The position numbers and the translations under genes were made by a program. The notes under the pieces were generated by a model, which searched no databases, was not told where the DNA came from, and saw only the letters and a program-made list of their open reading frames with translations. This document shows, piece after piece, positions 2,981-38,793 of a stretch of DNA of 39,933 nt. Source of the stretch: Oscillospiraceae bacterium (lineage in GTDB: Bacteria > Bacillota > Clostridia > Oscillospirales > Acutalibacteraceae); contig SVPO01000005.1 in the NCBI GenBank assembly GCA_015065795.1, positions 1-39,933 of the forward strand, written 5' to 3'. Within the stretch, counting starts at the first letter, position 1. Each line of letters begins with the position of its first letter.

Positions 2981-3829
2981 TCACAATTCCGAATTGCCGT
3001 CGGAGGGCATATCCTCCAGACCGAACTCGCCCAGCATACGGATATTGCGCTCCACCACGCCTCTGCCGCGGAAAAGATACGCGCGGTCACGGGCGGTGGT
3101 CAGGTCGCTGACACTGACCGAGGGGTTTGCTCTGGCGCGGAAAGGCTCGATGTAGGTATCCTCCGCATCCACGTTAAGGGGACAGACATCCTGACAGGTG
3201 TCACAGCCCCACACAAGTCCGCCCTGTCTGAGCAGCGCGGCTTCGGCTTCGGACAGCTCACCTTTACGCTGGGAAATATCCGAAAGGCATATCTTGCGGT
3301 CAAAGCCGCCTTCTGCCCTCAGCGCACCACTGGGACAGGAACTGATGCATCTGCCGCAGTGACGGCACTCTCTGATCTCTCCGTCGCTTGTAGGAGGGAT
3401 AACCAGATCGGTGACGATGCTGCCGATGAAGCAGTAGCTGCCGTAGCGCTCGTTGATGAGCAGACCGTTGTCTCCCCGGACACCCAGACCGCAGCGCGCG
3501 GCGGCGTAGACCTCCGGAATGGGGGAATTATCCACAAACCAGACAAATTCAAAATCATCGCCGAATGCCTTCTGCAGTGCACCCACCGCTGTGGTGAGCA
3601 TATGTCCGGCTATCTCGTGGTAGTCGGGCACGGCTGCGTAACGGGAAAGATTTCCTCGCTCCACAGGCACTTTGTAGGGGAACAGAACGGAAATGATGCT
3701 CTGAGGATTTTCCGGCAGACGTCCCTTGGCAAGGCAGTTGAGCAGCTTGTCGGAGACATCGGAAAACGGGCGCACTCCGAAATCGTATAGTCCGCTGGCA
3801 TTGAGTATTATTCTGAGCATTCCGGTCAT
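2981..3829 (-). CDS. queG: Epoxyqueuosine reductase QueG-like 4Fe-4S protein (short form)
   Basis: CRHCGRCISSCPSGAL and CDTCQDVCPLN double [4Fe-4S] motifs, VDNSPIPEVYAA, GVRGDNGLLIN. Confidence 0.8.
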   Translation of the reverse strand: MTGMLRIILNASGLYDFGVRPFSDVSDKLLNCLAKGRLPENPQSIISVLFPYKVPVERGNLSRYAAVPDYHEIAGHMLTTAVGALQKAFGDDFEFVWFVDNSPIPEVYAAARCGLGVRGDNGLLINERYGSYCFIGSIVTDLVIPPTSDGEIRECRHCGRCISSCPSGALRAEGGFDRKICLSDISQRKGELSEAEAALLRQGGLVWGCDTCQDVCPLNVDAEDTYIEPFRARANPSVSVSDLTTARDRAYLFRGRGVVERNIRMLGEFGLEDMPSDGNSEL

Positions 3830-4070: not shown

Positions 4071-4169
4071 TACGCTGAGTATTCAGTATATTGATCGCGG
4101 GAATTGCGGACTTCCGTGATCAGGTTCTATGGCTTGAGCCCTTTACGGGCAGGTTTGAGGAGGATTCCC

Positions 4170-5039
4170 ATGTTATCAAAGTATTTGCCAAAGCAAGCAG
4201 GGCAGGCAGTGCCTGTGCTGCTGTCGCTGCTGGCAGTGTTTGTTATCGCGCTGGCGGGCATTGCGGCATGCTCGGAAAGCAGCTCGGAACAGACCGTAAT
4301 GCCACCTGTGGCAAGCGAGACGGTGGTGGTCACGCCATCCTCTCCCGTTCCTAACGACGACCCGAATATCCGCGGATTCGTGACACGAATCACCACCTCC
4401 GCGGAAAGCACAGAGATCCTCGTTGAGTATTTCTGTCCCGAGGGAGCTTCCCCTGAGTATCCCTATGACAAGGTTCTTGTCAAGCTGGACGGCAACACCG
4501 CGGTGGATTCCGACAACGGAACCATCGTAAACATCGGCTCTCTCACGGTGGGCTCCACTGTGGAGGTCTGGTTCTCCGAGCCGTCTGCCGAAAGCTATCC
4601 CGTGCTCGCCTACGGACAGGCAGTCAGACTCATCACATCAGGTGATCCGATGAACGGCATGACCGGTCTGCCCCGGCTGGCTGTCATCGGCTCCAGCAAA
4701 TCCCTCGCCGGACCTCTGGATGTGGACTGGCCGTCACGCGGTTATGATTTTTCACGCACCATGAGCGAAATGCTGGACAGCACACGCGGTGCGCACATCA
4801 CCGCCGAGCCCGGCAAGGCTCTCACCCTCAATTTCAGCAGTAACCCCAAGGCGTTCACCGCGTACCGGGCAGAATCGCAGAATTACTACAGCCCCAAGTA
4901 CGAGATCGAGGTCGGCGAAAACAACGAGATCATTGTTCCTGAAAATGCCTCAGGGGAGCTTTTCATCTATGTGAACGCTTCCTGGGAGCGCGGAACGATG
5001 GTGTACGGCTTTGCCGTCTCCATAGTTGAACCCAACTGA
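4170..5039 (+). CDS. Putative lipoprotein/secreted protein with DUF3221-like N-terminal domain
   Basis: aggagg RBS before ATG 4170; MLSKYLPK...LALAGIAAC-type signal; IRGFVTRI...VWFSEPSAESYPVLAYGQAVRL resembles DUF3221/YobA-type domains. Confidence 0.65.
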   Translation: MLSKYLPKQAGQAVPVLLSLLAVFVIALAGIAACSESSSEQTVMPPVASETVVVTPSSPVPNDDPNIRGFVTRITTSAESTEILVEYFCPEGASPEYPYDKVLVKLDGNTAVDSDNGTIVNIGSLTVGSTVEVWFSEPSAESYPVLAYGQAVRLITSGDPMNGMTGLPRLAVIGSSKSLAGPLDVDWPSRGYDFSRTMSEMLDSTRGAHITAEPGKALTLNFSSNPKAFTAYRAESQNYYSPKYEIEVGENNEIIVPENASGELFIYVNASWERGTMVYGFAVSIVEPN

Positions 5040-5175: not shown

Positions 5176-7782
5176 ATGCTCAACTGGCACGCACTTACCG
5201 GACGGGAAACCGCCGAATACCTTGTAACCGACCCTGAAACCGGTCTTTCCGAGGAGCAGGCAGTTCAGCGTCTGGGAAAACACGGCGCGAACGAACCTAC
5301 CGGAAATGGTCATGAATCATTTGTACGCGCTCTGCTCAGGCAGCTGATGGAGCCCATGTCAATGGTGGTTTTTTCTTCCGCTGTCATAGCTGCAGTGGTT
5401 GCCATCAACGACCGCAATGGCGGCAACTGGCTGGAACCCATTATGATAGTCGTGCTCGCTCTGGCGATATGCTCGGTGCGCGCATGGAGAGACCACTCCG
5501 CCGCTGTCACCAACCACAGCCAGAGTCAGCTCAACCCGTTGACCGTGCGCGTGATGCGTGACGGCGTTGTGGACAGCATAGCCGCCCGACGGCTGGTCCC
5601 CGGTGATATCATTCTGCTCAGCGAGGGCGATATCGTCCCGGCGGACGCCCGTCTGCTCACCGCCACATCTCTTGTGTGTGACGAATCCCGTTCGGAAAGC
5701 GGCATTTCACGCGCCGAAAAAAGCGCGGACACTCTGACCGATGCCACCGCGCCCGTTGACAAGCGCATCAACATGATCTATTCCGGCTGTCCTGTTGTCT
5801 CCGGCAGCTGCAAAGCCATTGTAACGGCAACCGGCGCTGCTGCCACGGAGGGTCGTTCTGCCGCTCTGCTGGAAAACGACCCCGCCCCTCAGGCTGTCCC
5901 GGTTCTTTCCGCAGACGCAATGAAGACATGGAGGCTTGGCGTGTATGCCGCGGTGGGAGTCTCCGTGCTTGCCATGGGGCTTTTCCGCCGTACCCATGAC
6001 CTGAAAGCCATCGAGCTGATCATCACCGGAATCACTCTGGCGTATGTGGCACTGCCCTCCGGCGTGTTCAGCGTGCTGGGCAGCATTTTCTCCCAGGGTT
6101 CGCTCACCATGGCACGTCAGGGTGTTATCCTGCGTAATCTGCCTGTTATCCCCTCCATCGGCGGCGCATCGGTGGTATGCACCGGCAAAACCAGTCTGCT
6201 CACCACCGGCAGCATGACCGTGGAGCGGATATGGACACCGGGCGGCCGGCTTGTGTCCCCGGAAGGAGACGGACTTGGTTCGGAAAACGAGTACCGTCTG
6301 CTTGAATACGCGGCAATATGCAGTGACGAGACCAGCGACGCCATGGGAAGTGCCATTGTCGCTGCTCTGGAGCAGTTATCCCGTGAGAACGACGAACTTA
6401 ATTCCCGTTATCCCAGAATCGCCCGTCTGCCATACGGCTTCGGACGGCGGCTGATGACTACCATACACCGCACCGCTGAGGGCTTTCTGGCGGTCACGAA
6501 GGGTGCACCGGACATTCTGATTCCTCTGTGCTCCTTCTGCGACACCGAAACCATCACTGCCATATGCGAGCAGATGAGCCGCGACGCGCTGCGTCCGGTG
6601 GCTGTGGCATATCGTCTGCACGCCGCGCTTCCCGAGGAGCTGAGCGAAGAAGCTCTTGAGCACGACCTCGTGTTTGCCGGTATTCTGGGCGTCGGTGACG
6701 AAGAACGCGACGACAGTGCCGATGCCGTGAAGGAACTGACCGAGGCAGGCATACGGGTGGTAATGACCTGCGGTGAATATCCCGCGACCGCTGAGGCATA
6801 CGCGAAAAAGCTCGGTATTCTCCGTCCGGGAGATGACACTCTCACCGGCACGCAGCTGACGCAGATGAGCGAACCGGAGCTGAACGCCCATGTGCGTCAG
6901 TGCGCCGTTTGCGCGCGTCTTTCCGCCGAGGACGAACGCCGCGTGGTCGAGGCGTGGCAGTCGGCCGGAGAGGTGGTGCTCGCCACCGCCGCCCGTGTGG
7001 AGGATCTGCCGGTGGCGCGTCAGGCTGACGCTTCCTGCTCCCTGGGTATAACCGGCCATCACGCCGTGCAGCACGCTTCCGACGCTATGCTGAGTGACGA
7101 CAGCTTTTCGCTGATATCCGACATTGTGCGTCTGTGCCGCTCCGCCTGCGACAACGCCAGAGCGGCAGTGCGTACTCTGCTCGCCTTCAGTATGGGCGAG
7201 CTGGGCGCTGTGCTGATAAGCGTGCTGTTCATGGGCACCACGCCGCTGCTGGCGGTACATATGCTGTCAGCGCTCCTTTTCGGCGGCGCTCCCCTTGCTG
7301 CACTGCTGGCACATGAGCCGCCCGACATCGGCATCATGTATCGCGCGCCCAGAAGGCGCAAGGCGTGCATCCCCATGAGGGAAACCGGAGTTTTTGCAGC
7401 AATCTGCGGCATCATCATTGCCTCGGTGACTGTCACCGCCTACGCTGTCGGAAAGCCCAGCAACGTCGATGCAGGAAGAACCATGGCGTGGGGCGTGCTG
7501 TGTTTTTCGCAGATATTCTGCGCGGTCAGTCTGCGCTCCGACCAACCCCTTTACTACATCGGTCTGCGCACCAACACCCGCCACACCGCGCTGGCATTCA
7601 TCAGCATGGTATGCGTGATACTTATCATGCTTTTCGGGCAGGAGCTGTTCCTGCTGGTCGATCTCACGGGTATACAGTGGCTGATAATGTTCGCCCTTTC
7701 CCTTGGCTCGATGCTGCTTTTTGAACTGACAAAATTCCTGCGTCCTCTCATCCGTCAGCTTGCCGGTCTGCCGGAAGCGTGA
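5176..7782 (+). CDS. P-type (P2-like) cation ATPase homologue, probable pseudoenzyme: DKTGT replaced by GKTSL
   Basis: Full-length P-type architecture: LVPGDIILLSEGDIVPADARLL, KGAPD, MTCGEYPATA, LGITGHHAVQHASDAMLSDDSF and C-terminal TM helices. Catalytic motifs are degenerate (see findings). Confidence 0.92.
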   Translation: MLNWHALTGRETAEYLVTDPETGLSEEQAVQRLGKHGANEPTGNGHESFVRALLRQLMEPMSMVVFSSAVIAAVVAINDRNGGNWLEPIMIVVLALAICSVRAWRDHSAAVTNHSQSQLNPLTVRVMRDGVVDSIAARRLVPGDIILLSEGDIVPADARLLTATSLVCDESRSESGISRAEKSADTLTDATAPVDKRINMIYSGCPVVSGSCKAIVTATGAAATEGRSAALLENDPAPQAVPVLSADAMKTWRLGVYAAVGVSVLAMGLFRRTHDLKAIELIITGITLAYVALPSGVFSVLGSIFSQGSLTMARQGVILRNLPVIPSIGGASVVCTGKTSLLTTGSMTVERIWTPGGRLVSPEGDGLGSENEYRLLEYAAICSDETSDAMGSAIVAALEQLSRENDELNSRYPRIARLPYGFGRRLMTTIHRTAEGFLAVTKGAPDILIPLCSFCDTETITAICEQMSRDALRPVAVAYRLHAALPEELSEEALEHDLVFAGILGVGDEERDDSADAVKELTEAGIRVVMTCGEYPATAEAYAKKLGILRPGDDTLTGTQLTQMSEPELNAHVRQCAVCARLSAEDERRVVEAWQSAGEVVLATAARVEDLPVARQADASCSLGITGHHAVQHASDAMLSDDSFSLISDIVRLCRSACDNARAAVRTLLAFSMGELGAVLISVLFMGTTPLLAVHMLSALLFGGAPLAALLAHEPPDIGIMYRAPRRRKACIPMRETGVFAAICGIIIASVTVTAYAVGKPSNVDAGRTMAWGVLCFSQIFCAVSLRSDQPLYYIGLRTNTRHTALAFISMVCVILIMLFGQELFLLVDLTGIQWLIMFALSLGSMLLFELTKFLRPLIRQLAGLPEA

Positions 7783-7817: not shown

Positions 7818-8390
7818 ATGACACACGAATTATTTCTTGCATCCGCTTCACCCCGCCGCCGCGAGCTTATCGCAGCCATCGGAATCCCTTTTGTCTGCGC
7901 TTCTCCCGAGGCTGACGAAACCGTTCCCGAAGGCACCCCTCCCCGTGACGCCGCTCTGCTGATTGCTCGACGAAAAGCGGAAGCCGCGCGCAGCATGAGC
8001 GAGTCCGAGGGACGGATCATCGTTTCCGCCGACACCATCGTGGTGGTGGACGGACAGATTTTCGGCAAGCCCTCCGACCGGCAGCACGCCGCCTCCATGC
8101 TGCGCACGCTTTCCGGCAGGGAGCATCAGGTCATGACCGGCGTGTGCGTCATTCTGCCCGACGGAACCACCGACAGCTTCTGTGAGTGTACCGGCGTCAG
8201 ATTCTATCCGCTGAGCGACGAGGAGATCGAGCGATACATCGACTCCGGCGAACCCATGGACAAGGCAGGTGCTTACGGCATTCAGGGCATCGGCAAGCTG
8301 CTGGTGGAGGGCGTCAGCGGCGATTACTTCAACGTGGTGGGACTGCCCGTGGCTCATCTCAAGCGCTTTATAGACGGGATGATGAACTGA
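7818..8390 (+). CDS. maf: Maf family nucleotide pyrophosphatase
   Basis: LASASPRRRELI, SADTIVVVDG, GKPSD, GAYGIQGIGKLLVEGVSGDYFNVVGLP. Confidence 0.94.
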   Translation: MTHELFLASASPRRRELIAAIGIPFVCASPEADETVPEGTPPRDAALLIARRKAEAARSMSESEGRIIVSADTIVVVDGQIFGKPSDRQHAASMLRTLSGREHQVMTGVCVILPDGTTDSFCECTGVRFYPLSDEEIERYIDSGEPMDKAGAYGIQGIGKLLVEGVSGDYFNVVGLPVAHLKRFIDGMMN

Positions 8391-8434: not shown

Positions 8435-8478
8435 AGCCGCTCGCGTGCAGTTTGTCTCTGCGCGTGAGCGGCTTTTTC
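8435..8478 (+). terminator. Rho-independent terminator
   Basis: agccgctcgcgtgcag ... ctgcgcgtgagcggct + TTTTT. Confidence 0.75.
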
Positions 8479-8549
8479 TATGTCAGCGGTCACGGAAATC
8501 AATTCAATCAAATATACTGTTATTGGCGCTGCATTATTGCGCTTATCGG

Positions 8550-8578
8550 TTGAAAAACGCCCGGAACACGGGTATAAT
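8550..8578 (+). promoter_or_regulatory. Promoter for murD
   Basis: TTGAAA-N17-TATAAT. Confidence 0.6.
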
Positions 8579-30484: not shown

Positions 30485-32509
30485 TTATTCAAATTTTCGG
30501 GAAAGCACGCCGCCTGCAACACCCACTCTGCCGCCGCCGAGGAGGAGCTCCTTCACCTTGCGCTGCAGGGTGGTGTTCACGGGCAGGTCTGCAGGATCTA
30601 CATTCTTCTGCTGTTCCTCGGTGAGCCTGAACACCCATTCAAGCACGTCATCAGGCTCGGGATCGACCTCGAGAATGTCAAAGGCGTTCTGAAAGCGGAT
30701 GATATTCGAGCTCTCCGGCAGCATATCTCTCAGCACCGGAGCCAGCAGCCAGCTGGAGCACACCATCGGTGCTTCCGCCCACTGAGGATACCATTCATCA
30801 ATAAACTCCCTCGCCTGCCCAACGGACGCATTGAGCCTGTCGGCGGTCATATCGGCATCTGAGGGAATGTGCAGGTCGATAATATACCTTCCCTCGTGCT
30901 GACGCATTTCGTATTCCAGCTCGCCTATGCGCAGCAGCTGGGCATTTGCCTGACGGGTGGTCCAGAAGTCGCGGTCAAAGCCGTATTCTCCCGTGGACGC
31001 ATGATATTCACCCACAAATCTGGTGAAGGCTTTCATGGTGTTCAGCCAGATATCTTCGGGGATGTTCTCCCACGGGCAGCCCTCATCGCGGTTGTCGATG
31101 GCAGCCAGCAGATGCGCAGCCAGCTTGTCGGCACCGTTGGTGACATCGCTGGAGTATTCGCCGCTGTAGTCGGGAAGATCTTTCCACGCGTGGTCCATGA
31201 CCTGCATGGCAAACTCCCGGGGCATATCTATCTGAACAAGGAGCTTTTCCATCTCCTCCTGCTGCAGCAGACGGATTTCTTCTTCCTCCGCACGTCTGGA
31301 CTGCCGGGAATATCGAAGATAGTAATCGTGCTTACGGTCGGCATCGGCGTCCTCGGGCGACAGCTTCCAGTCCTTTTCCGGAGCAAACTCAAGCCCCAGC
31401 TCGGATATCTCCTGGCGTAGTGCTTTCAGCTCTGCGGTGAAGTCTTCCCATGCGGCGCATTTGTCCGCCATCTTCAGCGCCATTGCCGGCAGTCTGGGGA
31501 ACAGCAGATACGCGGCGCGGTCGATGTTGGTGATGCGCTCGGTCCACAGCATACACTCCCAGCCTATGAGCCTGTCCTCGCAGCCGACGGCATAGGAAGG
31601 GGTGCGCGCCATGTTCCGGATATGCTCCACGTCGATGGACGAATATGGATAGTCGAAATAGAAATCATCCAGATCGGAGCGGATGACTCTGCCCCCTGCC
31701 TGCATGAACTCGGCAGTCTCTTTGTCGTTGCCCAGCCAGTGGTGTACGATGAAGTGCTGTGGCAGGATACCTCCTGCGAGGCAGTCGTTGTAGACGATGG
31801 TGCTTCTGCCATGCTGAGCGAGGAATTCGCCGATGGTGAGCACCAGCCAGCGCTGCAGCTCCTCCTCATTTGCCAGCCCCTCATCGCGCATACGCTTCTG
31901 GCAGTCGGGGCAGCGGCGCCAGTGCAGCTTGAGTGCTTCGTCGCCGCCGATATGCACTGCAGGATACGGGAACAGCCCGATGATCTCCGTAAGGATGTCC
32001 TTGAAGAAACCAATGGCATCGTCTCTGCCTGCGCAGATGAGATTGGGGAATATGCCGCCGTCGCAGCGCAGAGCGTAGCTGTAGGGCTGATCGATGATCT
32101 CCTCGTTTCCGTCACGGAGGATGGTTCTCCGGCAGCCGTATTCGGGATAGGCGGTGAGCATGGCGCTGGCGTGTCCCGGCAGCTCGATCTCGGGAATGAC
32201 GTCGATGCCGCACTCAGCGGCAAAGGCGACGATCTCTTTCACCTGCTCCTGCGTGTAGAAGCCGCAGTTGTTTTCCGTCTGCGACACATTGCCGAAATAC
32301 GAATTGCCGCGCACCGAACCGACCTCGGTCAGATGGGGATATTTCTTTATCTCCACGCGCCACGCCTGATCGTCGGCAAGGTGCCAGTGCATAATGTTAA
32401 GGCCGCATAACTGTGCGGCTTTCAGCAGGCGTTTGATATTCTCCACGGGCATGAAGTGGCGGCTGACATCCAGCATGAAGCCGCGGTGGGGATGCGGTGA
32501 GCTGCTCAT
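30485..32509 (-). CDS. Glycoside hydrolase family 20 (beta-N-acetylhexosaminidase-like)
   Basis: GFMLDVSRHFMPVENIKRLL, LNIMHWHLADDQAWRVEIKKYP, DVIPEIELPGHASAML, HIGGDEALK catalytic DE pair. Confidence 0.93.
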   Translation of the reverse strand: MSSSPHPHRGFMLDVSRHFMPVENIKRLLKAAQLCGLNIMHWHLADDQAWRVEIKKYPHLTEVGSVRGNSYFGNVSQTENNCGFYTQEQVKEIVAFAAECGIDVIPEIELPGHASAMLTAYPEYGCRRTILRDGNEEIIDQPYSYALRCDGGIFPNLICAGRDDAIGFFKDILTEIIGLFPYPAVHIGGDEALKLHWRRCPDCQKRMRDEGLANEEELQRWLVLTIGEFLAQHGRSTIVYNDCLAGGILPQHFIVHHWLGNDKETAEFMQAGGRVIRSDLDDFYFDYPYSSIDVEHIRNMARTPSYAVGCEDRLIGWECMLWTERITNIDRAAYLLFPRLPAMALKMADKCAAWEDFTAELKALRQEISELGLEFAPEKDWKLSPEDADADRKHDYYLRYSRQSRRAEEEEIRLLQQEEMEKLLVQIDMPREFAMQVMDHAWKDLPDYSGEYSSDVTNGADKLAAHLLAAIDNRDEGCPWENIPEDIWLNTMKAFTRFVGEYHASTGEYGFDRDFWTTRQANAQLLRIGELEYEMRQHEGRYIIDLHIPSDADMTADRLNASVGQAREFIDEWYPQWAEAPMVCSSWLLAPVLRDMLPESSNIIRFQNAFDILEVDPEPDDVLEWVFRLTEEQQKNVDPADLPVNTTLQRKVKELLLGGGRVGVAGGVLSRKFE

Positions 32510-36183: not shown

Positions 36184-38793
36184 ATGGCATTCAACAAACG
36201 CAACGACCCTCGTTTCGACGAGTTTTTCGGCAAGGGCAATCGCAGCACTCCCGAGCCGGAGAGCTACGACATCAGCGATGATGTTTTTGCCTCCGACAAC
36301 CGTGCGCCGGCAAAGCCCGGACGCAGATCGCGCTTCCGCTCCAACGCCGATGTTCAGTACGGTGAGCGTTCCTCATCAGGCACTCCGCAGCAGGCACGCA
36401 GTTCCGGTTCGGAGGAAAAGCCGAAATCACGGAAAGCTGCCGCGCTGCAGGATCGCGAGCCGAACTCAGGCAGCCGCAGCGATGCGGTGCGGCGCAGATT
36501 CTCCCCCGGATACGACGGCAGCAGAATCCATCAGCCTGAGGGACGCTTCCGCAAAAAGTCGGGGCAGGAAACTGCCGCTCAGCAGGATCCTGCCGGCAGA
36601 CAGCGCAGCCGTTCCGTCCGACAGGACGCGTATGATCTTCAGTCCGTGAGCACTCCCGTGGAGACCTCCGCATCCTTTGAGTACGATTATGACGAGAATT
36701 ACGACGAGGGATTCGTCTACGAGCGCAACATCGGACGCAAGGTGAAGAAAGCACTCCTGTACACCTTCGCTGCACTGATAATCCTGGTTCTTGTCGCTCT
36801 GGGCGCTTTCCTGCTGCGTCCGCAGGGCGGCGGTGAGTATTTCCGTCTCAACGGCTCTCTGCCTATGGTCAGCGGAATACAGCAGACCGATGCAGGCGAG
36901 AACAGCGCGTGGCTAGACTGGGAGCCCGTTGATGAAGTAGCCGGATATGAGATCCTGCGCTTTGACGACGTCACCGCTCAGTATGTCCACGTCAAGAACG
37001 CTTATCTGAGCTGGGCATATCTTTCCGGACTGGAAACCGGAAGCTCCGGAAAGTATATCATCCGTCCCTACTGCAAAAACGGCAGCGGCGTTTACACCGA
37101 GCTTGCGGCGGAGGAATTCACCGTCAAGACTCAGCCCGGTGACGCGGACACCCTGCGCCATCAGACCGCTACCCACGGTTCCGTCACCCTCGAGTGGGAC
37201 GCCATCCCAGGCGCCGACGGCTATGAGATGGAACGCGACATGGGCGGATGGTCGGGCTACGAATACTGCGGAGAATCACCGAAGGCTCAGCACACCATCC
37301 TCGGGCTGGACGCTTCCTCCACCTACACTTTCCGTATGCGCCCCTACGCAGACATCGGCACCAAGCGGTGCTACGGCGGCTGGTCGGAGAAGATCGTTAC
37401 CGCCACAAGCCCCATGCCCGTGCGCGAGCTGACGCAGGGAGACACCACCGACAGCGGATATCTGCTGAGCTGGACTGTCGCTTCGGAAGTGACCGGCTTT
37501 GAACTGTATCGCGCTGACCCCGACACCGGTGAAGCCACCGAGCTGCTCGGGCAGTGCGGCAATACCCATTATGAGATCTCCGGTCTTGAGTCGGTCAACT
37601 TTTCCAGCTATCGCGTCCGCGGATTCCTGCGCCACGACAGCGGAATCAGCTACGGCGAGTTCTCCGATATGATCACTGCCGTCACGCTGCCCACAAGGGT
37701 GAAAGGCATCGACCAGTATACCGCTGAGGACGGCACCTATACAATATCGTGGCAGCCCTCCGAGCGCAGCGAAGGCTACGAGATCTATGCCTACAGCTGC
37801 AGCCGCGGTGAATATGACCTGCTCGCCACCACATCGGAAAGCAGCTATTCCATCACCGACCTTGAGCAGTATGCCGAGCGGTACAAGGTCCGCGCGTACG
37901 TTTCCCTTGGTGACCTTGAGTTCTTCGGCGGCTATTCCGACGAGCTTGCCTGCCATCCGTATTATTACCTCAGCCGTAAGGTGACGGTGGACAAGGCGGT
38001 CACCACCATGCACACCGACGCAGGACCCGAGCACGAGCTTATTCAGGAGCTCAAGCGCGGCACAACCGTCCGTGTGTTCGGAGAGAAATCCGGCTCGGAC
38101 GGCTCTCGCTGGTTCCGCGTGGAGCTGAAGGACGGTTCCACCGGATGGATCTCCCGTGAGGACGTAGTCATCACTAACAGCTGCAAGACCCTTGCCACAA
38201 GAGAATACACCAAGGACGAGCCTATCGTCATTTACCTCTCCCCCTCCCGTCAGGGCGGTAACCCGTACATCATCGGCAACACCACCGAAAAGGAGCAGAT
38301 GGAGGCGGTCGCCGCGGTCACCCATCGTATCCTCAAGGAGGAATACAACTGCGTTGTGTACACCGCAAATCCCGATCTGGATCTGCGCGAACGGGCATTT
38401 GAGGCAAAGGAGCTCAAGGCTGACATTTACTTCGCCATACACTCCAACGCCACCGGCTCAGACGCGGTCCGCTACGGCGCAAGCAGCTATTACTGCGGTG
38501 CTTCCGGACGGAGCAAGAAGCTGGGACAGGCGGTTGTGGATGAGCTCAACGCCATCGCTCCTAAGAAGTGCAATCTCGACAAGCAGATGTACTCCGCGCT
38601 GCAGTCCTTCGGCGGAGTCGGATACGCCGAGGTGCGCGATCCTTACAATCTGGGCATGGTCTCTATTCTGGTTGAGACCGATTTCCACGACAACGAGCTG
38701 ACCGCCCAGTGGATCATGGACAACCACGAGGCTATCGGTCGGGCACTTGCCAACGCGCTGGTGAGCACCTTTGAGATTGAAAAGAAGCAATAA
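36184..38793 (+). CDS. Membrane-anchored cell wall protein: disordered cytoplasmic N-terminus, TM, about four FN3-like repeats, SH3, N-acetylmuramoyl-L-alanine amidase (Amidase_3-like)
   Basis: R/S-rich N-terminus; TM ALLYTFAALIILVLVALGAFLL; repeated WxxxxxxxGYEIxR FN3 units; SH3 RWFRVELKDGSTGWISREDV; amidase TEKEQM..ADIYFAIHSNA..LVETDFHDN. Confidence 0.88.
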   Translation: MAFNKRNDPRFDEFFGKGNRSTPEPESYDISDDVFASDNRAPAKPGRRSRFRSNADVQYGERSSSGTPQQARSSGSEEKPKSRKAAALQDREPNSGSRSDAVRRRFSPGYDGSRIHQPEGRFRKKSGQETAAQQDPAGRQRSRSVRQDAYDLQSVSTPVETSASFEYDYDENYDEGFVYERNIGRKVKKALLYTFAALIILVLVALGAFLLRPQGGGEYFRLNGSLPMVSGIQQTDAGENSAWLDWEPVDEVAGYEILRFDDVTAQYVHVKNAYLSWAYLSGLETGSSGKYIIRPYCKNGSGVYTELAAEEFTVKTQPGDADTLRHQTATHGSVTLEWDAIPGADGYEMERDMGGWSGYEYCGESPKAQHTILGLDASSTYTFRMRPYADIGTKRCYGGWSEKIVTATSPMPVRELTQGDTTDSGYLLSWTVASEVTGFELYRADPDTGEATELLGQCGNTHYEISGLESVNFSSYRVRGFLRHDSGISYGEFSDMITAVTLPTRVKGIDQYTAEDGTYTISWQPSERSEGYEIYAYSCSRGEYDLLATTSESSYSITDLEQYAERYKVRAYVSLGDLEFFGGYSDELACHPYYYLSRKVTVDKAVTTMHTDAGPEHELIQELKRGTTVRVFGEKSGSDGSRWFRVELKDGSTGWISREDVVITNSCKTLATREYTKDEPIVIYLSPSRQGGNPYIIGNTTEKEQMEAVAAVTHRILKEEYNCVVYTANPDLDLRERAFEAKELKADIYFAIHSNATGSDAVRYGASSYYCGASGRSKKLGQAVVDELNAIAPKKCNLDKQMYSALQSFGGVGYAEVRDPYNLGMVSILVETDFHDNELTAQWIMDNHEAIGRALANALVSTFEIEKKQ

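Follow-up and report, generated by a model that had tools for sequence, protein, structure and literature searches.

A full-length P2A-type ATPase homologue with lost catalytic residues in a gut-type bacterium

Catalysis by P-type ATPases requires the phosphate-acceptor Asp, the Mg2+-ligand Asp of GDGxND and the Glu of TGES. In other families, pseudokinases and iRhoms have kept a fold with its catalytic residues lost and an active paralogue in the same genome. Here we describe a protein that resembles them in these respects, P0001, encoded in a 39,933-nucleotide stretch of DNA (the window) from a gut-type bacterium (genome G000), together with a second such protein, P0002, from one (G002) of three congeners (G001, G002 and G003). 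Among described systems, the LMCA1/PMR1-type (P2A) Ca2+-ATPases, such as Listeria lmo0841 (6zhf, 9evc), are homologous to P0001 over its whole length and share its domain order and predicted fold, but P0001 lacks their acceptor Asp, TGES, TGD, GDGxND, PEGL Glu and M6 ligands.

Among the papers searched, none combined ‘P-type ATPase’ with ‘pseudoenzyme’, and the one well-studied degenerate P-type member that we found, human TMEM94/ERMA, is disputed: according to one group it lacks ATPase activity and adopts one fixed conformation (PMC12134183), while another finds its retained Asp essential for transport (PMC13322241). TMEM94 is the most comparable protein that we found in the literature, without specific kinship being implied. 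It has the P-type fold, no TGES, and GSSANL in place of GDGVND; replacements of both motifs are found in P0001, while P0002 has TGDS and GSSVAD. In contrast to both bacterial proteins, which have Gly there, TMEM94 keeps the Asp (DKQGI), and unlike P0001 it is a eukaryotic protein whose N domain is large and modified. The P4-ATPase domain fused to apicomplexan guanylyl cyclase alpha likewise links a P-type ATPase module to signalling, but it retains its catalytic Asp, which it seems to require (PMC7858053).

Fold and catalytic motifs of the window protein

The earlier note had singled out an uninterrupted 868-aa frame in the window as an intact P-type ATPase pseudoenzyme. The frame, which begins with ATG and encodes a protein that includes VVCTGKTSLLTTGSM, is indeed uninterrupted, and a search for frameshifted homology found none. 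P0001 carries the Pfam domains Cation_ATPase_N, E1-E2_ATPase, Cation_ATPase, HAD hydrolase and Cation_ATPase_C, with the A, P, N and membrane domains of the superfamily in P2A order, and its best solved relative in a PDB search is LMCA1 (6zhf, E=8e-97). It matches the NCBIfam equivalog TIGR01522 (E=1e-97) at 327.8 bits, far below the cut-off of 798.3 bits, and on an independent profile it scores 239 bits versus 599–645 for full-length active congeneric copies. Judged by its sequence, the gene is a full-length P2A-type (LMCA1/PMR1/SERCA-like) ATPase homologue. An AlphaFold2 model (mean pLDDT 80) is predicted in an E1-like state with ordered A, P, N and membrane parts and with low confidence at the former TGES loop (172–177); P-type ATPases make up 50 of its top 50 PDB fold matches. 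The gene and its motifs, the latter placed by alignment, are as follows.

5176..7782, plus strand: pseudo-P2A ATPase gene, 868 aa, intact (frame, Pfam, NCBIfam, PDB, alignment)
5695..5706, plus strand: TGES position, residues 174–177, here ESGI; dephosphorylation motif lost
6055..6069, plus strand: M4 PEGLP position, residues 294–298, here PSGVF; cation-ligand Glu295 lost (E295S)
6184..6198, plus strand: DKTGT position, residues 337–341, here GKTSL; phosphate-acceptor Asp is Gly (D337G)
6499..6513, plus strand: N-domain KGAPD, residues 442–446, kept
6697..6708, plus strand: DPPR position, residues 508–511, here DEER
6769..6777, plus strand: TGD position, residues 532–534, here CGE
6988..7005, plus strand: GDGVND position, residues 605–610, here AARVED; Mg2+-ligand Asp606 lost
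7273..7287, plus strand: M6 cation site N700..T703-D704, here L..G-G (N700L/T703G/D704G)

The GGC codon at 6184–6186 gives Gly337, as first read, in a column that is Asp in 55 active homologues. Alignment to the same homologues shows FDSxRK replaced by YGFGRR and K587 by Glu. The earlier description was in this respect too mild: fold and KGAPD are retained, yet almost all the remaining catalytic motifs have changed. Changes in the nucleotide pocket are conservative, with F420Y in both P0001 and P0002, and K425R alongside retained KGAP and R473 in P0001. For a hand-chosen set of catalytic positions, P0001 has lost 22 of 31 near-invariant residues versus 55 of 151 elsewhere (Fisher p=6e-4), and P0002 14 of 31 versus 44 of 151 (p=0.09). 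The acceptor Asp, the Mg2+-ligand Asp606 and the M6 Asp704 are lost in both.

With the acceptor Asp, TGES, GDGxND, TGD, PEGLP, DPPR and M6 ligands all altered, established P-type chemistry excludes Post-Albers pumping by P0001, which the earlier note had argued from the acceptor Asp. Nor is P0001 likely to transport or sense Ca2+ at the canonical site, given that its cation ligands have been dismantled. Homology to enzymes whose essential catalytic residues P0001 has lost points to a pseudoenzyme, a status we regard as well supported.

Congeners and the history of the loss

The window gene lies between three syntenic neighbours, recognized by comparison with the congeners.

2981..3829, minus strand: QueG-like gene, left syntenic marker
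4104..5039, plus strand: lipoprotein-like gene of unassigned family, left syntenic neighbour
7818..8390, plus strand: maf, right syntenic neighbour, 35 bases downstream, possibly co-transcribed (synteny; hairpin and promoter scan)

A strong terminator-like hairpin (16 pairs) after maf and a site resembling a promoter (11 of 12) ahead of a MurD-like gene, both at window 8435–8578, suggest that the pseudoenzyme gene and maf may form one unit. Farther along the window, a 674-aa frame (30485–32509, minus strand) combines a GH20 glycosidase domain with an N-acyltransferase (NAT_N/GNAT_C) domain, and an Amidase_3 protein that also carries fn3 and SH3 domains (36184–38793, plus strand) is matched by congeners over its last third or so only, its N-terminal part looking species-specific.

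In G001 and G003 the same neighbours, queG and the lipoprotein-like gene on one side and maf on the other, flank an active-motif gene that is ~35% identical to P0001 over its whole length; the window gene is the positional orthologue of these genes. P0002 is an intact second pseudo-P2A ATPase of 891 aa in G002 (L041, contig C147, 2675–5350, minus strand), and its sequence is also present in GenBank record SVPT01000083.1 (Oscillospiraceae MAG SIG598). It carries GKGGT (D337G), GSSVAD for GDGVND (D606S), PEWTR and, in M6, D704G, but is less degenerate than P0001, with TGD kept and TGDS in place of TGES. The two proteins are about 37% identical (63–65% differing). Conservation of GKTSL, a check that the earlier note had proposed, thus holds for the Asp-to-Gly change shared with GKGGT, while the rest of the motif differs. 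P0002 sits outside the queG–maf setting, on another contig with no maf beside it, and in G002 no ATPase adjoins either the queG–lipoprotein pair or maf, which are found on separate contigs, so gene order has been rearranged there.

An active P2 paralogue, also among the proposed checks, is present in G000 as a P2A pump whose two parts, on contigs C150 and C42, are joined by an exact 50-aa overlap, and G002 likewise carries an active P2A pump. Each congener has two P2A-type genes, the second being of one paralogue type in the pseudoenzyme species (G000 and G002) and of another in the active-orthologue species (G001 and G003). All four genomes are incomplete MAGs (80–87%), and absences from them are therefore weak. 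Two well conserved genes contain internal stops that are probably assembly errors: a P2A pump gene in G003 (L034, C92:31-2661) and mfd in G001 (L112, C6:13216-16677).

A tree of queG, the lipoprotein-like gene and maf groups the genomes as (G000,G002),(G001,G003) with support of 100/100, and an Mfd tree agrees on G000 with G002 (88/90), whose Mfd proteins are about 62% identical (about 38% differing). By joining both pseudoenzyme species, the flank-gene tree agrees with a single loss and prolonged retention thereafter. In the ATPase tree P0001 and P0002 group together with support of 90–95, a join that long-branch attraction could aid; their branches measure 5.6 and 2.8 versus a median of 0.31. 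The two share 19 residues never seen in active copies, versus 5.2 +/- 2.1 in permutations, and these include D337G and D704G, although some are conservative and could be convergent. Taken together, the simplest reading of these sequences is a single loss before the split of G000 and G002 and long retention since, with two separate losses in the two lineages as a possible alternative.

Such copies appear rare. A profile search of 398 family genomes, with no more than two candidates scored in each, revealed no further pseudo-copy at the best loci examined; all other copies examined have active motifs. A profile of the two pseudo-copies recovered only the G002 copy again and active ATPases, with nothing viral, and P0001 as sole query found no close relatives in genome and viral contigs. 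The pattern C-x-[A/G/V]-KTGT, which covers Ala, Gly or Val in place of the Asp within unaltered flanks and cannot match GKTSL or GKGGT, matched in 30 of 396 genomes of the order; each of the 30 loci inspected was a chance match, and none lay in a P-type ATPase.

Constraint on frame and fold

When an active congeneric gene was drifted neutrally to 36% identity in 60 runs, it acquired 22 stops on average (never fewer than 14), versus none in the 868 codons of P0001. With stops forbidden, drift still gave a poorer hydropathy correlation (r 0.57 +/- 0.08 versus 0.83 for P0001) and a lower mean BLOSUM score of changes (-0.77 +/- 0.06 versus -0.31). P0001 keeps 105 of 182 near-invariant positions and is 21% identical to an active congener at variable ones, and the codon-position composition of its gene resembles that of its neighbours. 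Frame and fold are thus under constraint, and it is the catalytic positions that have preferentially been lost. Divergence of the pseudo-copies is saturated; their long branches and 37% identity argue that the constraint is weaker than on active pumps.

A redundant pump decaying under relaxed selection once a second pump had taken over, its frame left open by chance or, for instance, by translation into maf, would account for the very fast evolution of the pseudo-copies, the active paralogue in G000 and the start of maf 35 bases after the P0001 gene. We nevertheless consider decay rather improbable, since both species keep a full intact frame across a distance of about 62% Mfd identity, about 22 stops would be expected under neutral drift, even stop-free drift would erode hydropathy and conservative replacement, and the P0002 gene is intact with no maf beside it. 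The flank trees, missing stops and departure from drift make maintenance of P0001 by selection the most likely reading. Nor is it the lone decaying allele with frameshifts that the earlier note named as one refutation of its claim: P0001 has no frameshifts and G002 holds a second intact pseudo-copy. The description as an intact pseudoenzyme is upheld by this congeneric copy, the lost catalytic residues, the constrained frame and fold, and the active paralogue in the same genome.

Possible roles of a dismantled pump

Given its dismantled machinery and the second gene of this kind in a related species, P0001 has probably been retained for a task other than pumping. We judge it likely that P0001 is a pseudoenzyme derived from an active LMCA1-like pump, under selection since before the two species split and working by binding. 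Its ancestor would have been an active LMCA1-like pump at this locus. Once a paralogue had superseded it, the protein would have been retained for binding, although it can no longer be phosphorylated or dephosphorylated, nor bind Ca2+ at the canonical site. Its conservatively altered N-domain pocket, with KGAP and R473 kept and an aromatic residue replacing the FDS Phe, may still bind nucleotide without turnover. A cytosolic or membrane surface could contact another protein, possibly the active P2A pump that this genome encodes or a protein of the envelope, and such contact would make P0001 a regulator, sensor or scaffold, which we infer as the best reading of its role. Non-catalytic function, nucleotide binding and partner are all deduced rather than observed, and each mechanistic detail is put forward tentatively.

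Transport by other chemistry, with another residue accepting phosphate or with energy supplied without an aspartyl phosphate, as argued over for TMEM94, would suit the retained fold, KGAP and R473, and one group reports Mg2+ transport by ERMA/TMEM94 despite its degenerate motifs (PMC13322241). ERMA, however, retains and requires its own Asp (PMC13322241), whereas the acceptor Asp, Asp606 and Asp704 are lost in both bacterial copies, as are TGES, TGD and K587 in P0001, and we regard such an active transporter as very unlikely. Equally improbable is a passive channel or carrier whose membrane half would pass an ion or small solute uncoupled from ATP: the membrane helices are retained, but small or hydrophobic residues replace the M4 and M6 cation ligands. 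An assembly or sequencing artefact or chimera is conceivable in a draft MAG of 159 contigs and 80% completeness whose congeners show isolated internal stops, but the chance is negligible, as a single open frame with about 550 amino-acid differences cannot arise from errors, the synteny shared with congeners is unbroken, and a second, separately assembled MAG holds the same kind of gene.

Returning to retention of P0001 as a binding protein, we posit, as a conjecture we would not favour with much confidence, a bacterial lineage of P-type ATPase pseudoenzymes in which an ancestor of the two species lost the Asp once and the pump fold came to serve as a regulator or sensor that cannot be phosphorylated, possibly acting on the active Ca2+ pump that remains. 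One genus with active orthologues at the same chromosomal place and with dismantled copies represents a natural experiment in what a pump fold does without its chemistry.
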